Positions 26,639 to 63,435 of a stretch of 64,000 bases of DNA are shown here, in pieces. A program made the position numbers and the translations under genes. This DNA comes from Flavobacteriaceae bacterium. Its GTDB lineage: Bacteria > Bacteroidota > Bacteroidia > Flavobacteriales > Flavobacteriaceae. The number at the start of each line of letters is the position of its first letter. Within the stretch, counting starts at the first letter, position 1. The stretch lies in the NCBI GenBank assembly GCA_947456815.1, contig CANGTL010000003.1:30158-94157 (forward strand). The letters run 5' to 3'. A model generated the notes under the pieces. The model saw nothing but the letters and a program-made list of their open reading frames with translations, did no database searches and was not told the DNA's origin.

Positions 26639-29029
26639 ATGAAAAGAACTATTAAAAAAGTTGCAGTAATTGGTTCCGGAATCATGGGCTCTGGAATTGC
26701 CTGCCATTTTGCTAATATTGGTGTTGAAGTACTTCTCCTAGATATTATTCCTCGAGAACTTACTGAAACCGAAACAAAAAAAGGATTGACTTTAGATGAC
26801 AAAATGGTCCGAAATCGTATTGTCAACGATCATCTAACCAACGCGTTAAAATCGAAACCCTCTCCTATTTATCATCAGAAATTCGCAAGTCGAATTAAGA
26901 CTGGCAACACCACAGATGATCTCGCTCTAATTGCTACAGCCGATTGGATCATCGAAGTTGTGGTTGAACGATTAGACATCAAAAAATCTGTTTTTGAACA
27001 GATTGAAAAATACAGAAAACCAGGGACATTAGTAACGTCAAACACTTCTGGTATTCCGATTCAATATATGAGTGAAGGAAGAAGTGAAGATTTTCAAAAG
27101 CACTTCTGCGGCACACACTTTTTCAATCCAGCGCGCTACTTGAAATTATTTGAAATTATACCTGGACCGCAAACTTCAAATGAGGTACTCGAATTTCTAA
27201 CCAACTACGGCTCGCAGTTCTTGGGTAAAACTTCGGTAGTTGCCAAAGACACACCCGCATTTATTGGCAATCGAATCGGAATATTCGGCATTCAAAGCCT
27301 TTTTCATTTGGTAAAAGAAATGGGATTAACAATCGAGGAAGTCGACAAATTAACCGGTCCAGTAATTGGTCGTCCAAAATCTGCAACCTTCCGAACAGTA
27401 GATGTAGTAGGTTTGGATACGTTGGTTCATGTGGCGAACGGAATTTATGACAATTGCCCGAATGATGAAGCGCATGAACTTTTCAAAATGCCAGATTTCA
27501 TAACCAAAATGATGGGCAACAATTGGCTGGGAAGCAAAACCAATCAAGGATTTTATAAAAAAGTCGACAAAGATATCTTGTCTCTAGATTTAAATACACT
27601 CGAATATAGACCGGCGAAGAAAGCAGCATTTGCCACCTTAGAATTAACCAAAACCATCGACAAACCAATCGATCGCTTTAAAGTACTTGTAAAAGGAAAG
27701 GATAAAGCGGGTGAATTTTATAGAAAAAGTTTTGCAGGAATGTTTGCCTATGTGTCGAATAGAATTCCAGAAATAGCAGACGATTTATACAAAATTGACG
27801 ACGCTATGAAAGCTGGTTTCGGTTGGGAAAACGGACCATTCGAAATCTGGGATGCCATTGGAGTTACCCAAGGAATCGAAATCATGAAGGCTGAAAACTT
27901 AGCACCGGCAGCTTGGGTGTCTGATATGTTAGCTTCCGGAAATTCGAGTTTCTACACGATTAAAGAAGGTGCAACTTATTGCTATTCCACCGCAACAAAA
28001 TCACAAGTAAAAGTGCTGGGGCAAGATGCCTTTATCATTTTGGATAACATCAGAGAAACCAAAAAAGTATGGAGCAATAGCGGCGCAATAATTCAAGATC
28101 TCGGCGATGGTATTTTAAATCTTGAATTCCGATCGAAAATGAACACGATTGGCGGTGATGTTTTACAAGGCATCAACAAAGCCATTGACCTTGCAGAAAA
28201 AGAATACAAAGGATTGGTCATCGGAAATCAAGCCGCCAATTTTACCGTTGGTGCCAACATCGGAATGATCTTTATGATGGCAGTTGAACAAGAATACGAT
28301 GAATTGAACATGGCCATCAAAATGTTTCAAGACACCATGATGCGCGTGCGTTATTCGAGTATTCCGGTAATTGTAGCACCACATGGAATGACTTTGGGTG
28401 GCGGATGTGAAATGAGTATACATGCAGACAAAGTGGTCGCTGCAGCAGAATCGTATATCGGATTGGTTGAATTTGGCGTCGGTGTGATTCCGGGTGGCGG
28501 TGGATCCAAAGAAATGGCATTACGTGCCTCGGATTTATTTCGAAAAAACGATGTCGAATTGAATGTGCTACAAGAATACTTCCTAACAGTTGCGATGGCA
28601 AAAGTATCCACTTCCGCCTATGAAGCATTCGATTTAGGCATTTTACAACACGGAAAAGATATCGTCGTGGTCAACAAAGATCGCCAAATTGCGGAAGCAA
28701 AGAAACACGCGCTACTCATGGCCGAAGCGGGTTATACCCAACCTATTCGTAGAACGGATGTAAAAGTCTTAGGAAAACAAGCATTAGGAATGTTCTTAGT
28801 TGGAACCAATCAAATGGTTGCGGGAAAATACATCTCTGATCACGACTTGAAAATTGCCAATAAACTAGCTTACGTTATGGCAGGCGGTGATTTATCTGAG
28901 TCCACTTTGGTATCTGAACAATACTTATTAGATATCGAACGTGAAGCCTTCTTATCGCTTTGCACGGAAAGAAAAACGTTGGAACGAATTCAATTTATGT
29001 TAACAAAGGGAAAACCGTTGAGAAATTAG
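26639..29029 (+). CDS. 3-hydroxyacyl-CoA dehydrogenase / enoyl-CoA hydratase (FadJ/FadB-like)
   Basis: VAVIGSGIMGSGIACHFANIGVEVLLLDI NAD-binding site; GTHFFNPARYLKLFEIIPGPQTS; crotonase part APHGMTLGGGCEMSIHADKVVAAAESYIGLVEFGVGVIPGGGG. Confidence 0.94.
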   Translation: MKRTIKKVAVIGSGIMGSGIACHFANIGVEVLLLDIIPRELTETETKKGLTLDDKMVRNRIVNDHLTNALKSKPSPIYHQKFASRIKTGNTTDDLALIATADWIIEVVVERLDIKKSVFEQIEKYRKPGTLVTSNTSGIPIQYMSEGRSEDFQKHFCGTHFFNPARYLKLFEIIPGPQTSNEVLEFLTNYGSQFLGKTSVVAKDTPAFIGNRIGIFGIQSLFHLVKEMGLTIEEVDKLTGPVIGRPKSATFRTVDVVGLDTLVHVANGIYDNCPNDEAHELFKMPDFITKMMGNNWLGSKTNQGFYKKVDKDILSLDLNTLEYRPAKKAAFATLELTKTIDKPIDRFKVLVKGKDKAGEFYRKSFAGMFAYVSNRIPEIADDLYKIDDAMKAGFGWENGPFEIWDAIGVTQGIEIMKAENLAPAAWVSDMLASGNSSFYTIKEGATYCYSTATKSQVKVLGQDAFIILDNIRETKKVWSNSGAIIQDLGDGILNLEFRSKMNTIGGDVLQGINKAIDLAEKEYKGLVIGNQAANFTVGANIGMIFMMAVEQEYDELNMAIKMFQDTMMRVRYSSIPVIVAPHGMTLGGGCEMSIHADKVVAAAESYIGLVEFGVGVIPGGGGSKEMALRASDLFRKNDVELNVLQEYFLTVAMAKVSTSAYEAFDLGILQHGKDIVVVNKDRQIAEAKKHALLMAEAGYTQPIRRTDVKVLGKQALGMFLVGTNQMVAGKYISDHDLKIANKLAYVMAGGDLSESTLVSEQYLLDIEREAFLSLCTERKTLERIQFMLTKGKPLRN

Positions 29030-29039
29030 ATAATAGATA

Positions 29040-29099
29040 ATAGACGAAGAGATAATAGACAGAGTTGAAAAGTCTATCATCTATGATCTCTCTGTCTAT
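29040..29099. repeat. Imperfect inverted repeat between fadJ-like and thiolase genes
   Basis: Left arm ATAGACGAAGAGATAATAGA (29040-29059) pairs at 17/20 positions with right arm TCTATGATCTCTCTGTCTAT (29080-29099). Confidence 0.75.
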
Positions 29100-29118: not shown

Positions 29119-30300
29119 ATGAAAACAGCATACATAGTAAAAGCATACAGAACAGCCGTTGGAAAAGCGCCAAAAGGTGTTTTTCGATTCAAACGACCTG
29201 ATGAATTAGCAGCGGAAACCATTCATTTTATGATGAATGAATTACCTGACTTCGATAAGAAAAGAATTGACGATGTCATGGTAGGAAACGCTATGCCCGA
29301 AGCAGAACAAGGATTAAATGTTGGACGATTAATTTCATTAATGGGATTAAAAGTAACTGATGTTCCTGGTGTCACCGTCAACCGATATTGCGCCTCCGGA
29401 TTGGAAACCATCGGAATGGCAACGGCAAAAATTCAAGCCGGAATGGCAGACTGCATCATTGCAGGTGGCGCCGAAAGCATGAGTTTTATTCCAATGGGCG
29501 GTTACAAACCAACCCCTGACTATTCGGTAGCGAAAGAAGGACATGAAGATTACTATTGGGGCATGGGATTAACCGCAGAAGCTGTTGCAAAACAATTTAA
29601 TATATCGCGTGAAGATCAAGATGCTTTTGCTTTCAAGTCGCATCAAAAAGCACTAAAAGCGCAGGCAGAAGGAAAATTCGATAAGCAAATTGTGCCCATT
29701 ACCGTAGAGCAAACATTCATCAATGAAACTGGAAAAAAAGAAACCAAATCATATACGGTCAATAAAGACGAGGGTCCACGTACCGACACCAATATCGCCG
29801 CCCTTGGCAATCTAAAACCTGTATTTGCAGCAGACGGAAGTGTTACCGCTGGAAACTCTTCACAAATGAGTGATGGCGCTGCTTTCGTATTGATTATGAG
29901 TGAAGCCATGGTCAAAGAACTTAGCCTCACTCCAATCGCACGTTTGGTCAATTTTGCTTCTGCTGGTGTTGAACCCAGAATCATGGGAATTGGCCCTGTG
30001 CAAGCGATTCCGAAAGCACTAAAACAAGCTGGATTGCAATTGAAAGACATCGATTTGATTGAACTCAACGAAGCATTTGCCTCTCAATCTTTGGCAGTAA
30101 TTAGAGAATTAGGATTGAATCCGGATATCGTAAACGTCAATGGCGGCGCTATTGCTTTAGGTCATCCGTTAGGTTGCACCGGTGCGAAACTTTCCGTTCA
30201 ATTATTTGATGAGATGAAACGCAGAGGTAATAAATATGGAATCGTCTCTATGTGCGTGGGAACTGGACAAGGAAGCGCGGGGATATATGAGTTGATGTAG
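29119..30300 (+). CDS. Acetyl-CoA C-acyltransferase (thiolase)
   Basis: GVTVNRYCASGLETIGMA active site, GGAESMSFIPMGG, NVNGGAIALGHPLGCTGAKL, GIVSMCVGTGQGSAGIYE. ATG at 29119 preferred over track TTG at 29065, which lies in the inverted repeat. Confidence 0.94.
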   Translation: MKTAYIVKAYRTAVGKAPKGVFRFKRPDELAAETIHFMMNELPDFDKKRIDDVMVGNAMPEAEQGLNVGRLISLMGLKVTDVPGVTVNRYCASGLETIGMATAKIQAGMADCIIAGGAESMSFIPMGGYKPTPDYSVAKEGHEDYYWGMGLTAEAVAKQFNISREDQDAFAFKSHQKALKAQAEGKFDKQIVPITVEQTFINETGKKETKSYTVNKDEGPRTDTNIAALGNLKPVFAADGSVTAGNSSQMSDGAAFVLIMSEAMVKELSLTPIARLVNFASAGVEPRIMGIGPVQAIPKALKQAGLQLKDIDLIELNEAFASQSLAVIRELGLNPDIVNVNGGAIALGHPLGCTGAKLSVQLFDEMKRRGNKYGIVSMCVGTGQGSAGIYELM

Positions 30301-30312
30301 AAAAATTGAATT

Positions 30313-30361
30313 GAGTCAAGAGTCAAGAGCCAAGAGCCAAGAGTCAAGAGTCAAGAGTCAG
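30313..30361. repeat. 7-bp tandem repeat (about 7 units of GAGYCAA)
   Basis: gagtcaa gagtcaa gagccaa gagccaa gagtcaa gagtcaa gagtcag, directly upstream of the four-helix-bundle gene. Confidence 0.92.
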
Positions 30362-30403
30362 GATTAAAAAAATAAATATAAGCCAACAATTAAAAATTAT
30401 ACT

Positions 30404-30763
30404 ATGCGCCACAACTTTAAGAATCTAAAAATATGGAATTTGTCTATGGAAATCACATCAGACATTCATAAAATAGCATTGACATTTCCCAAGTATGAAA
30501 CCTATGGATTAGTTAGTCAAATGAATAGATGTTCAGTATCAATGCCATCAAATATTGCCGAAGGCTCAAATAGAACTAAAAGACATTTTGAATATTATTT
30601 GAATATAAGTTTGGGTTCTTCATTTGAACTACAAACACAACTATTAATAGCTCGGCAAAATGACTATTTAACCGAAGAAAAAACAATTGAACTTGAAAAT
30701 AAAATAATTGAATTTCAAAAGATGACCACTGGTTTTATAGACAAGTTAAATCTTGGTTCTTGA
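30404..30763 (+). CDS. Four helix bundle protein (23S rRNA intervening-sequence protein family, bAvd-like)
   Basis: FKNLKIWNLSMEITSDIHKIALTFPKYETYGLVSQMNRCSVSMPSNIAEGSNRTKRHFEYYLNISLGSSFELQTQLLIARQNDYL matches the IVP consensus (PSNIAEG...GSxxELxTQL). Confidence 0.9.
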   Translation: MRHNFKNLKIWNLSMEITSDIHKIALTFPKYETYGLVSQMNRCSVSMPSNIAEGSNRTKRHFEYYLNISLGSSFELQTQLLIARQNDYLTEEKTIELENKIIEFQKMTTGFIDKLNLGS

Positions 30764-30767
30764 TTCT
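30752..30767. repeat. Inverted, degenerate copy of the GAGYCAA repeat overlapping the IVP stop codon
   Basis: cttggttcttgattct; reverse complement agaatcaagaaccaag matches agagtcaagagccaag (30319-30334) at 14/16. Confidence 0.7.
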
Positions 30768-30797
30768 AACATCTTTTATCTAAAAAAAACAAAAAAA

Positions 30798-32588
30798 ATG
30801 AGCGATAAAACAAGAGGTGGACAATTCCTCGTAAAAGAAACCCCATGTGAAGACATTTTCACACCGGAAGATTTTAATGAAGAACAATTGATGATGCGCG
30901 ACTCCGTAAAAGAGTTTGTCGACAAAGAAATTTGGCCCAACAAAGATCGTTTCGAAAAGAAAGATTACGCGTTTACCGAGCAAAGCATGAAGAAAGCCGG
31001 CGATTTAGGATTTCTAAGCGTCGCCGTTCCTGAAGCCTATGGCGGTATGGGAATGGGATTCGTCAACACGTGTTTGGTCTGCGATTATATTTCAGGCGCA
31101 ACTGGTTCATTTTCTACCGCATTTGGTGCGCATACTGGGATCGGAACCATGCCAATAACACTCTACGGAACCGAAGCCCAAAAACAAAAATATGTTCCTA
31201 AATTAGCCACAGGCGAATGGTTCGGAGCGTATTGTTTGACTGAACCAGGTGCTGGATCTGACGCCAATTCCGGAAAAACAAAAGCAGTTTTATCGGAAGA
31301 TGGAACGCACTACAAAATCACCGGACAAAAAATGTGGATTTCTAATGCTGGATTCTGTTCATTATTTATTGTTTTCGCTAGAATAGAAGACGACAAAAAC
31401 ATCACAGGTTTTATTGTTGAAAATGAATCAAGTAATGGAATTTCGATGAATGAAGAAGAGCACAAACTTGGTATTCGCGCGTCATCAACTAGACAAGTAT
31501 TTTTTAATGAAACCAAAGTTCCGGTAGAGAATATGCTTTCTGAACGTGGAAATGGCTTCAAAATCGCGATGAACGCCTTGAATGTAGGCCGTATCAAATT
31601 AGCTGCTGCATGTTTAGACGCACAACGAAGAGTGACTTCTGGAGCTGTAAAATATGCAAATGAAAGAATGCAATTCAATACCGCCATCGCACAATTTGGC
31701 GCTATTCGATACAAATTAGCGGAAATGGCAACAAGCTGTTATGCAGGTGAAAGTGCTACTTATCGCGCGGCTAAAGACATTGAAGATCGCATTCAAATTC
31801 GAGAAAGCGATGGAAGTTCTCATCAAGAAGCGGAATTAAAAGGAGTTGAAGAATACGCTATCGAATGTTCTATCTTAAAGGTTGCGGTTTCGGAAGATGT
31901 TCAAAATTGCGCTGATGAAGGAATTCAAATTTTCGGCGGTATGGGATTTTCAGAAGACACGCCTATGGAAAGCGCTTGGCGTGATGCCCGTATTTCAAGA
32001 ATATACGAAGGCACGAACGAAATCAATCGAATGTTGTCCGTTGGGATGTTAATCAAAAAAGCCTTCAAAGGTCATGTTGATTTATTGGGTCCAGCCACAA
32101 AAGTGCAGGAAGAATTAATGGGAATTCCTTCGTTCGATACGCCTGATTATTCCGAATTGTTTGCCGAAGAGAAAGAAATGATTGGCAAATTGAAAAAAGC
32201 ATTTTTGATGGTAGCAGGCGGTGCGGTTCAAAAATACGGACCAGAATTAGATGGACATCAGCAACTTCTCATGGCGGCAGCGGATATCTTGATTGAAATT
32301 TATATGGCAGAATCGACGCTGCTTCGAACCGAAAAACTGGCCAAGAATAAAGGGGAAGCCAATGCCAAAGAACAAATTGCCATGGCAAAATTGTACTTAT
32401 ACAAAGCAGTTGATATCGTAACCCAAAAAGGAAAAGAAAGCATTATATCCTTCGCAGAAGGCGACGAACAACGGATGATGTTAATGGGATTACGTCGATT
32501 TACAAAATACACCAACATGCCCAATATCGTAGGATTACGCGAAACCATCACGACAAAGTTGGTGGCTGAAAACGAATATTGTTTTTAA
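30798..32588 (+). CDS. Acyl-CoA dehydrogenase
   Basis: YCLTEPGAGSDANSGKTKAV, KMWISNAGFCSLFIVFARI, FGGMGFSEDTPMESAWRDARISRIYEGTNEINRMLS; start placed at ATG 30798. Confidence 0.94.
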   Translation: MSDKTRGGQFLVKETPCEDIFTPEDFNEEQLMMRDSVKEFVDKEIWPNKDRFEKKDYAFTEQSMKKAGDLGFLSVAVPEAYGGMGMGFVNTCLVCDYISGATGSFSTAFGAHTGIGTMPITLYGTEAQKQKYVPKLATGEWFGAYCLTEPGAGSDANSGKTKAVLSEDGTHYKITGQKMWISNAGFCSLFIVFARIEDDKNITGFIVENESSNGISMNEEEHKLGIRASSTRQVFFNETKVPVENMLSERGNGFKIAMNALNVGRIKLAAACLDAQRRVTSGAVKYANERMQFNTAIAQFGAIRYKLAEMATSCYAGESATYRAAKDIEDRIQIRESDGSSHQEAELKGVEEYAIECSILKVAVSEDVQNCADEGIQIFGGMGFSEDTPMESAWRDARISRIYEGTNEINRMLSVGMLIKKAFKGHVDLLGPATKVQEELMGIPSFDTPDYSELFAEEKEMIGKLKKAFLMVAGGAVQKYGPELDGHQQLLMAAADILIEIYMAESTLLRTEKLAKNKGEANAKEQIAMAKLYLYKAVDIVTQKGKESIISFAEGDEQRMMLMGLRRFTKYTNMPNIVGLRETITTKLVAENEYCF

Positions 32589-61683: not shown

Positions 61684-63435
61684 TTAATCATTCATCGAAA
61701 TCAAGAACTCATCGTTATTTCTTGTTTTCTTAAATCGGTCATTGATAAAATCCATAGCTTCAACAGGATTCATATCTGCTAAGTATTTTCGCATAATCCA
61801 CATACGTTGTAAAGTCTTCTCATCTAATAATAAGTCGTCTCGACGTGTACTTGATGAAGTCAAATCAATCGCAGGGAAAATACGTTTGTTTGCAATCTTA
61901 CGATCCAATTGTAACTCCATATTTCCAGTTCCTTTGAATTCCTCAAAAATCACCTCATCCATTTTGGAACCGGTTTCTGTCAATGCCGTAGCGATAATAC
62001 TCAATGAACCACCATTTTCTACATTACGAGCAGCTCCGAAAAATCGTTTAGGTTTTTGCAAAGCATTCGCATCTACTCCTCCACTCAAGACTTTTCCTGA
62101 TGCCGGTTGCACAGTATTGTAAGCTCTTGCCAAACGTGTAATTGAATCTAACAATATCACCACATCGTGACCACATTCTACCAAACGTTTGGCTTTTTCC
62201 AAAACAATATTGGCAATCTTCACATGCTCCTGTGGCTCTCTGTCGAAGGTAGAAGCAATCACTTCTCCGCGCACAGAACGTTGCATATCGGTAACCTCTT
62301 CTGGTCGTTCATCAATTAGTAACACCAACAAATAAACTTCCGGATGATTCGCCGCAATCGCATTGGCAATGTCTTTCAACAACATCGTCTTACCCGTTTT
62401 GGGTTGCGCCACGATCATTCCACGTTGGCCTTTCCCAATTGGTGAAAATAAATCAATAATACGCGTTGAAATGGAACTGCCTTTCTCGGCTATTTTGAAT
62501 TTCTCGGTTGGGAACACTGGAGTCAAATGTTCAAAAGAAACACGGTCTCTCACTACTTGTGGATCATGACCATTAATTTTCAAGACACGAACCAATGGAA
62601 AAAACTTCTCTCCTTCTTTCGGCGGACGAACAACTCCTTTAACGGTATCACCAGTTTTTAATCCAAACAAACGAATTTGCGAAGTAGACAAATAAATATC
62701 ATCCGGAGACGCCAAATAGTTATAATCGGACGAACGTAAGAACCCGTATCCGTCGGGCATCATTTCTAAAACGCCTTCGCTCTCTATAATCCCGTCGAAC
62801 TCAAAATCAGCATCTCTGAAGTTGTTGTTCTTTTTATTTTTGAAATTCGGATTTTGATTTCCGTTTTGATTTCCGTTGCCGTTTTGATTCGGATTTTGGT
62901 TTGGATTCTGGTTTGGATTCTGCTTGTGCTGTTGATTTGGATTGACTTTCTTCTCTTGAACTGGGTTTTCACTCGCATCCGCAGTTTTTTCTGTCGATTC
63001 GTTTTCTTCAGAACCAGTTGGTTCTACTATTGCAGACTTCTCTATTTTATTGGCGACTTTCTTTTCGTAATCCGCTTTCTTAAACTTGACCACTTTCGGT
63101 TCTTTTTGGGCGGGATTTACCTCAGTCGATTGAGACATTTCGTTCGGCGCTGGCTCCGCAACTGCTGCTGGTTCTTCATCTGAGAAAAGTGTCGCAGATT
63201 TTGTAATGGCAGGTTTTTTATCAGCAGTAATTCTCGCTCTCTTTGATTTCTCCTCCGAATTATTCTCTTTAGTAGGCTTGTTGTTATCATTGACTTCACT
63301 TGCCTTTTGATTTTCAATAATCATGGCAATTAAAGCTTCTTTCTTAACTCCGGCAAACTTGATTGTTTTTGCCAATTTGGCAATATCTTGAAGCTCAGTT
63401 AGCTTCATTTCTTTTAATACAGAAATATCAAACAT
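61684..63435 (-). CDS. rho: Transcription termination factor Rho
   Basis: [105 protein letters not shown]. Confidence 0.97.

Follow-up and report, generated by a model that had tools for sequence, protein, structure and literature searches.

An IVP gene between inverted heptanucleotide arrays: a candidate minimal mobile unit in Flavobacteriaceae

The IVP proteins, known from intervening sequences (IVSs) of 23S rRNA, and the heptanucleotide repeats of cyanobacteria, Xanthomonas and Beggiatoaceae are two old and separate puzzles. They meet in a Flavobacteriaceae genome, in the stretch of 64,000 nucleotides analysed here (henceforth "the window"), where a small ORF of the IVP family lies in a beta-oxidation gene cluster and is bordered by repeats of a 7-nt word. 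An earlier note on this DNA had proposed that the gene and the repeats may move or be maintained as a unit. The locus raises the question of whether such a unit exists, and whether it is peculiar to this site or typical of IVP genes.

The ORF (30404-30763, plus strand) is an IVP of the PF05635/TIGR02436 family. It matches PF05635 (23S_rRNA_IVP) with E=4e-32 and 111 bits (cut-off 33.8) and TIGR02436 with E=1e-29 and 102.7 bits (cut-off 24), while the profile search with PF01797 (Y1, TnpA-REP) gave no match to this protein. The AF2 model is a four-helix bundle (pLDDT 95.8) whose nearest folds are 2gsc (the top PDB match, TM about 0.90), an IVP encoded by Xanthomonas campestris (XCC0516), and 2rld, followed by the Avd protein of diversity-generating retroelements (DGRs; 4dwl/8ub7, TM about 0.78). 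The solved relative 2GSC is a homopentamer that forms a ring (PMC4990558). The upstream neighbour is a thiolase (acetyl-CoA acyltransferase) gene at 29119-30300, counted from the ATG at 29119 (a TTG further upstream is listed as its start), and the downstream neighbour is an acyl-CoA dehydrogenase gene at 30798-32588, with its ATG at 30798. All three genes are on the plus strand, and the IVP unit is intergenic and outside rRNA genes.

Direct reading of the region upstream of the ORF reveals a 5' arm (30312-30367, plus strand) of eight tandem 7-nt units (TGAGTCA, six AGAGYCA, and GGATTAA), which in register from 30312 run TGAGTCA-AGAGTCA-AGAGCCA-AGAGCCA-AGAGTCA-AGAGTCA-AGAGTCA-GGATTAA. The seven GAGYCAA units (30313-30361) that the earlier note had described before the ORF are thus confirmed, also by TRF (30313-30360, period 7, 6.9 copies, 95% matches). 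The inverted copy that it had placed at the end of the ORF is real as well, but longer than described: direct reading and complementarity delimit a 3' arm (30747-30781, minus strand) of five inverted 7-nt units, AGATAAA-AGATGTT-AGAATCA-AGAACCA-AGATTTA, all of which begin with AGA (pattern AGANNNN), and the final 17 nt of the ORF lie within it. Pairing between the two arms is best at 30319-30335 (plus strand) in the 5' arm, where 15 of 17 positions match; dinucleotide shuffling of the 3' side reaches this value in 6 of 2000 cases, and 4 of 2185 other 58-nt windows do so. Between the arms there is only the IVP ORF, without a match to any transposase family, which distinguishes this arrangement from an insertion sequence or a MITE. 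A hairpin without any ORF (29028-29089, no strand assigned, score 13) occupies the preceding junction, between the 3-hydroxyacyl-CoA dehydrogenase and thiolase genes; it is composed of inverted AGATAAT-type heptads, with arms at 29028-29045 and 29072-29089 and a loop of 26 nt. The same junction contains an IVP ORF in 8 relatives.

The host genome (91.6% complete) contains 10 IVP ORFs, most of which are flanked by inverted arrays, as judged by eye and by alignment, with a different word at each; these words include AGTTGTA, AATTGAT, GTTTACA/GTTAACG, CAGTGGT, and the 8-mer AGGTTCTA. Only the IVP in the window has GAGYCAA, and GAGYCAA-like arrays elsewhere in the host genome are without an IVP. 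A search for GAGYCAA around other IVP ORFs, suggested in the earlier note, was therefore negative, and we reject this heptamer as a mark of all IVPs. Since each IVP clade has its own word, that search alone would have led away from a correct idea. Tandem arrays of the window type, counted in 782 kb of the host genome, have a period of 7 in 24 cases and of 8 in 9 cases, with 0-4 for other periods. In these 782 kb most heptad arrays are not close to an IVP, and several consist simply of a hairpin built from similar words. The loops of five hairpins without an ORF yielded no IVP remnants at E 0.01, and among viral contigs chosen by the heptamers GGGAATC or AGAGTCA an IVP was nearby in 0 of 8. Because most of the host arrays and all eight of these contigs are IVP-free, heptad arrays can exist or spread without an IVP; they outnumber the IVP units and may have an independent life.

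In order to assess the generality of the layout, we analysed 215 IVP loci from the genus, from Bacteroidota, from other phyla, and from viral contigs. Complementarity between upstream and downstream flanks was compared with that of mis-paired flanks taken from different loci, which set the 5% level, and with that around 96 control genes from the same loci. The median was 16.0 for 188 IVP loci versus 8.5 for the 96 control genes (MWU p=4e-31), and 79% of these IVP loci exceeded the 95th percentile of the control genes. The 95th percentile of mis-paired flanks was exceeded in the genus by 24 of 36 loci, in Bacteroidota by 67 of 100 (partly orthologous loci), in viral contigs by 21 of 27, and in other phyla by 21 of 25, several of the cross-phylum cases being metagenome bins that could be mis-binned. 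In the set from the beta-oxidation junction the proportion was only 6/27, probably because its members have common arms. Plasmid loci fetched later (cyanobacterial and Riemerella, mostly cyanobacterial) have arms in 8/8 cases, with scores of 17-26.5 and with TCAGGAG-type heptamers among them. Detectable arms are absent at about 20% of IVP loci. The dominant arm period is 7 bp in 102 and 8 bp in 43 of 153 loci, while shuffled arms give a flat distribution; in three loci (L034, L039, L048) the unit in some arms is longer, about 10 bp (TTAGACTTCT type). The arms have median lengths of 4.4 and 4.6 units (mode 4-5), with a span of 468 bp for the entire unit. AG exceeds CT in the 5' arm at 120 loci, and the reverse is true for 11. 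We dropped a claim of arm polarity relative to gene direction, because a hairpin is identical when read on either strand, and retain only the statement that AG reads toward the ORF.

Comparison of the loci with each other shows that the sequence of the arms and the length of their units go with the IVP protein, and not with the host or the site. In pairs of loci whose neighbours are not homologous, the arms are more similar the more identical the IVPs are (p=2e-21), with values of 14.5-16 below 50% identity, 20 at 60-70% and 33.5 at 70-80%. One 8-mer arm family (AGGCACAA) is common to IVPs from KSB1, Nitrospirae, and Desulfobacteraceae bins and from Bacteroidota, at 61-70% protein identity. 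On a tree of IVPs under 70% identical, unit length switches between 7 and 8 a total of 9 times, versus 19.8 in shuffles (minimum 16), and the assignment to Bacteroidota or other phyla changes 12 times versus 16.1; that the host phylum barely follows the IVP phylogeny suggests frequent horizontal transfer. Noncoding arms would be recognisable at such protein distances only if they were selected, which may point to cognate recognition of the arms by the IVP.

Empty sites, which the earlier note had recommended looking for at the thiolase-acyl-CoA dehydrogenase junction, do exist: among 55 genus genomes an IVP is present at this junction in 25 and missing in 30. Among the IVP-free junctions are clean gaps of 27-46 nt, remnants of heptads without an ORF, disrupted ORFs, and hairpins of two other families. 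Mapped on the thiolase tree, occupancy shows 18 changes, which is not below the random level. The IVPs found here belong to three clades and have arms of three families; two more occur at the neighbouring 3-hydroxyacyl-CoA dehydrogenase-thiolase junction. In a second junction that was compared, 3 genomes have an IVP and 25 do not, with short heptad hairpins in many of the 25. The thiolase-acyl-CoA dehydrogenase junction seems to receive small elements of several kinds. In six loci where it is free of an IVP (L097, L102, L104, L109, L113, L120) it holds a hairpin of 120-170 bp, GCCCCCTAACCCCCAAAGGGGG...CCCCCTTTGGGGGTTAGGGGGC, and a different hairpin, TTTGTCATTTCGACGAAGGAGAAATC...GATTTCTCCTTCGTCGAAATGACAA, is found there in L105, L108, L118, L130, and L131.

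In a single viral contig (L275) we found one IVP unit nested in another. The outer IVP ORF (MQDFKKLQVWQKAHNFTV ... VNLYKISSSFPDSEKFGLT), which has GAGTTAT arms (5' arm from 1701, 3' arm from 2681), is interrupted by another IVP unit, which has TAGCTTTT arms (5' arm from 1909, ATG at 1983, 3' arm to about 2355), and resumes near 2392. The inner arms are separated from the break by short hairpins; no clean target duplication is readable there, nor at the empty sites. In another contig (L304, positions 1-731) two IVP copies, 99% identical, follow each other in the same direction and are joined by a fused arm; this resembles a head-to-tail dimer, but it is located at the contig start and may be an assembly effect. 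As judged from sequence comparison, mobility of the gene together with its arms is well supported. The idea of gene and repeats as a unit thus holds in its general layout, in the covariation of arms and protein, in the empty sites, and in the nested unit, and fails with respect to GAGYCAA as a family-wide mark.

Our preferred interpretation, to which we assign a probability of roughly 0.7, is that the IVP ORF and its two inverted arrays constitute a single minimal mobile unit, about 470 bp long, whose IVP binds the cognate arms. Such a unit, i.e. tandem 7- or 8-nt words, an IVP gene, and then the same words inverted, would seem to be a very small mobile element of a type not described before. 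The protein is a four-helix bundle with a pentameric ring as its solved relative, and would bind its own arms as single-stranded DNA or RNA, possibly with one subunit per 7-8-nt word, in the manner of ring proteins wrapping a repeated word; arms of 4-5 units and a pentameric relative suggest this. Binding could protect the hairpin, or hand it over to an enzyme, from the host or acting in trans, that finishes the insertion. Operon read-through is the likely mode of expression, since such units are sense-oriented inside operons (123 of 134 where the neighbours are co-directional). The 23S rRNA IVSs that encode IVPs would be units of the same type resident in rRNA, tolerated there because RNase III removes the hairpin.

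The same IVSs suggest an alternative, in which the unit is an RNA element: the arms would pair in the operon transcript, RNase III would trim the stem, the IVP would bind its own message or the excised hairpin, and spread would be rare and passive. The 23S rRNA IVSs of Leptospira and Coxiella (PMC4990558) are similar to our units in having an IVP-family protein in an inverted-repeat loop, a patchy distribution, and suspected mobility, and differ in that units of the window type lie between protein genes and have clade-specific 7- or 8-mer arms. In Coxiella the layout is even the same, with tandem GACAGAT heptamers, reported merely as a strain polymorphism, upstream of the IVP ORF, in an IVS cut by RNase III. 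The prevailing sense orientation agrees with this explanation, as does the predicted folding of the unit in the window, which contains a 17-bp arm stem (z=-2.0). However, arm mismatches show no G-U bias (132 vs 160, p=0.11), hence no sign of selection for an RNA stem, and none of the 40 IVP loci sampled from other phyla and viral contigs is located in rRNA. Taken alone, an RNA element also leaves the nested insertion and the ORF-less DNA hairpins unexplained, and we regard it as rather unlikely.

A mobile unit of gene and arms could also be moved in trans, in the manner of REP/RAYT systems, with Y1 or another distant transposase acting on the hairpin arms and the IVP being a passenger or accessory. 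The analogy with REP/REPIN-RAYT drawn in the earlier note is apt as far as it concerns a small gene, cognate inverted-repeat hairpins, and intergenic hairpin-only copies across the genome. The differences are that the IVP is not a Y1 transposase, that the arms are tandem 7/8-mers, and that Y1 is missing from the host. We did find Y1 matches in two relatives, in an enlarged 3-hydroxyacyl-CoA dehydrogenase-thiolase interval (G005 C33:239086-239430 and G025 C48:54455-54799; loci L113 and L101). Yet 20 of the 60 genus genomes lack Y1, among them that of the host, which has 10 IVPs, and arms go with the IVP clade rather than with the host, which makes this version improbable.

Slightly less probable still is that the IVP acts as an Avd-like accessory of a reverse transcriptase (RT) provided in trans, so that the unit would move by target-primed reverse transcription of its hairpin RNA. 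DGR Avd is pentameric and works together with RNA, and the four-helix bundle common to the IVP and Avd/bAvd, together with weak profile matches to the bAvd and DGR-Avd models, is what favours this possibility. These matches are, however, under the cut-off, and no RT (PF00078) was found in the 91.6% complete host genome. A resident RT or Y1 transposase is therefore rejected as the mobilising enzyme, as neither was detected in the host genome at this completeness.

Least probable of all, and already contradicted, is the notion of two independent things, i.e. slippage-prone repeats or terminators that arise anywhere and IVPs that are ordinary host genes among them: it accords with the many arrays that have no nearby IVP and with heptamers being common simple repeats in bacteria (PMC4679880, PMC4692102), but not with the enrichment over control genes from the same loci, the locus-specific pairing of arrays, the arms that track IVP phylogeny at unrelated sites, or the nested unit.

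Returning to the unit of gene and cognate arms, intergenic heptamer arrays of the same kind have been described in cyanobacteria (STRR), Beggiatoaceae (TAACTGA), Bacteroidetes, and Xanthomonas (GGGAATC), where they mostly have about four units and form about 70 convergent inverted pairs (PMC4679880, PMC4692102). They were published as repeats only, and we found no IVP protein in the text of these two papers; neither did a full-text literature search, confined to papers outside subscription, reveal one that links heptamer repeats to IVPs as a general rule. If gene and arms indeed form a mobile unit with cognate recognition, IVPs and heptamer repeats would each partly explain the other, and a class of mobile elements without a known recombinase would be added. 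A broader proposal, to which we would give somewhat less than an even chance, is that such units are minimal selfish elements spanning phyla, in which a small ring protein reads tandem 7/8-nt arm words, one per subunit, and the clade-specific word coevolves with the protein. This would account for the function of IVP/S23 proteins, for the 23S rRNA IVSs, and for a share of bacterial heptamer repeats. A search of phage records for IVPs gave no match. A survey of rare CRISPR-linked genes has the 23S rRNA IVP among its listed domains (PMC10910872); heptad arrays near IVPs might pass for CRISPR-like repeats. Elsewhere in the window, at 62852-62922, there are tandem repeats of 12 bp (TTTTGATTTCCG, TTTTGGTTTGGA).
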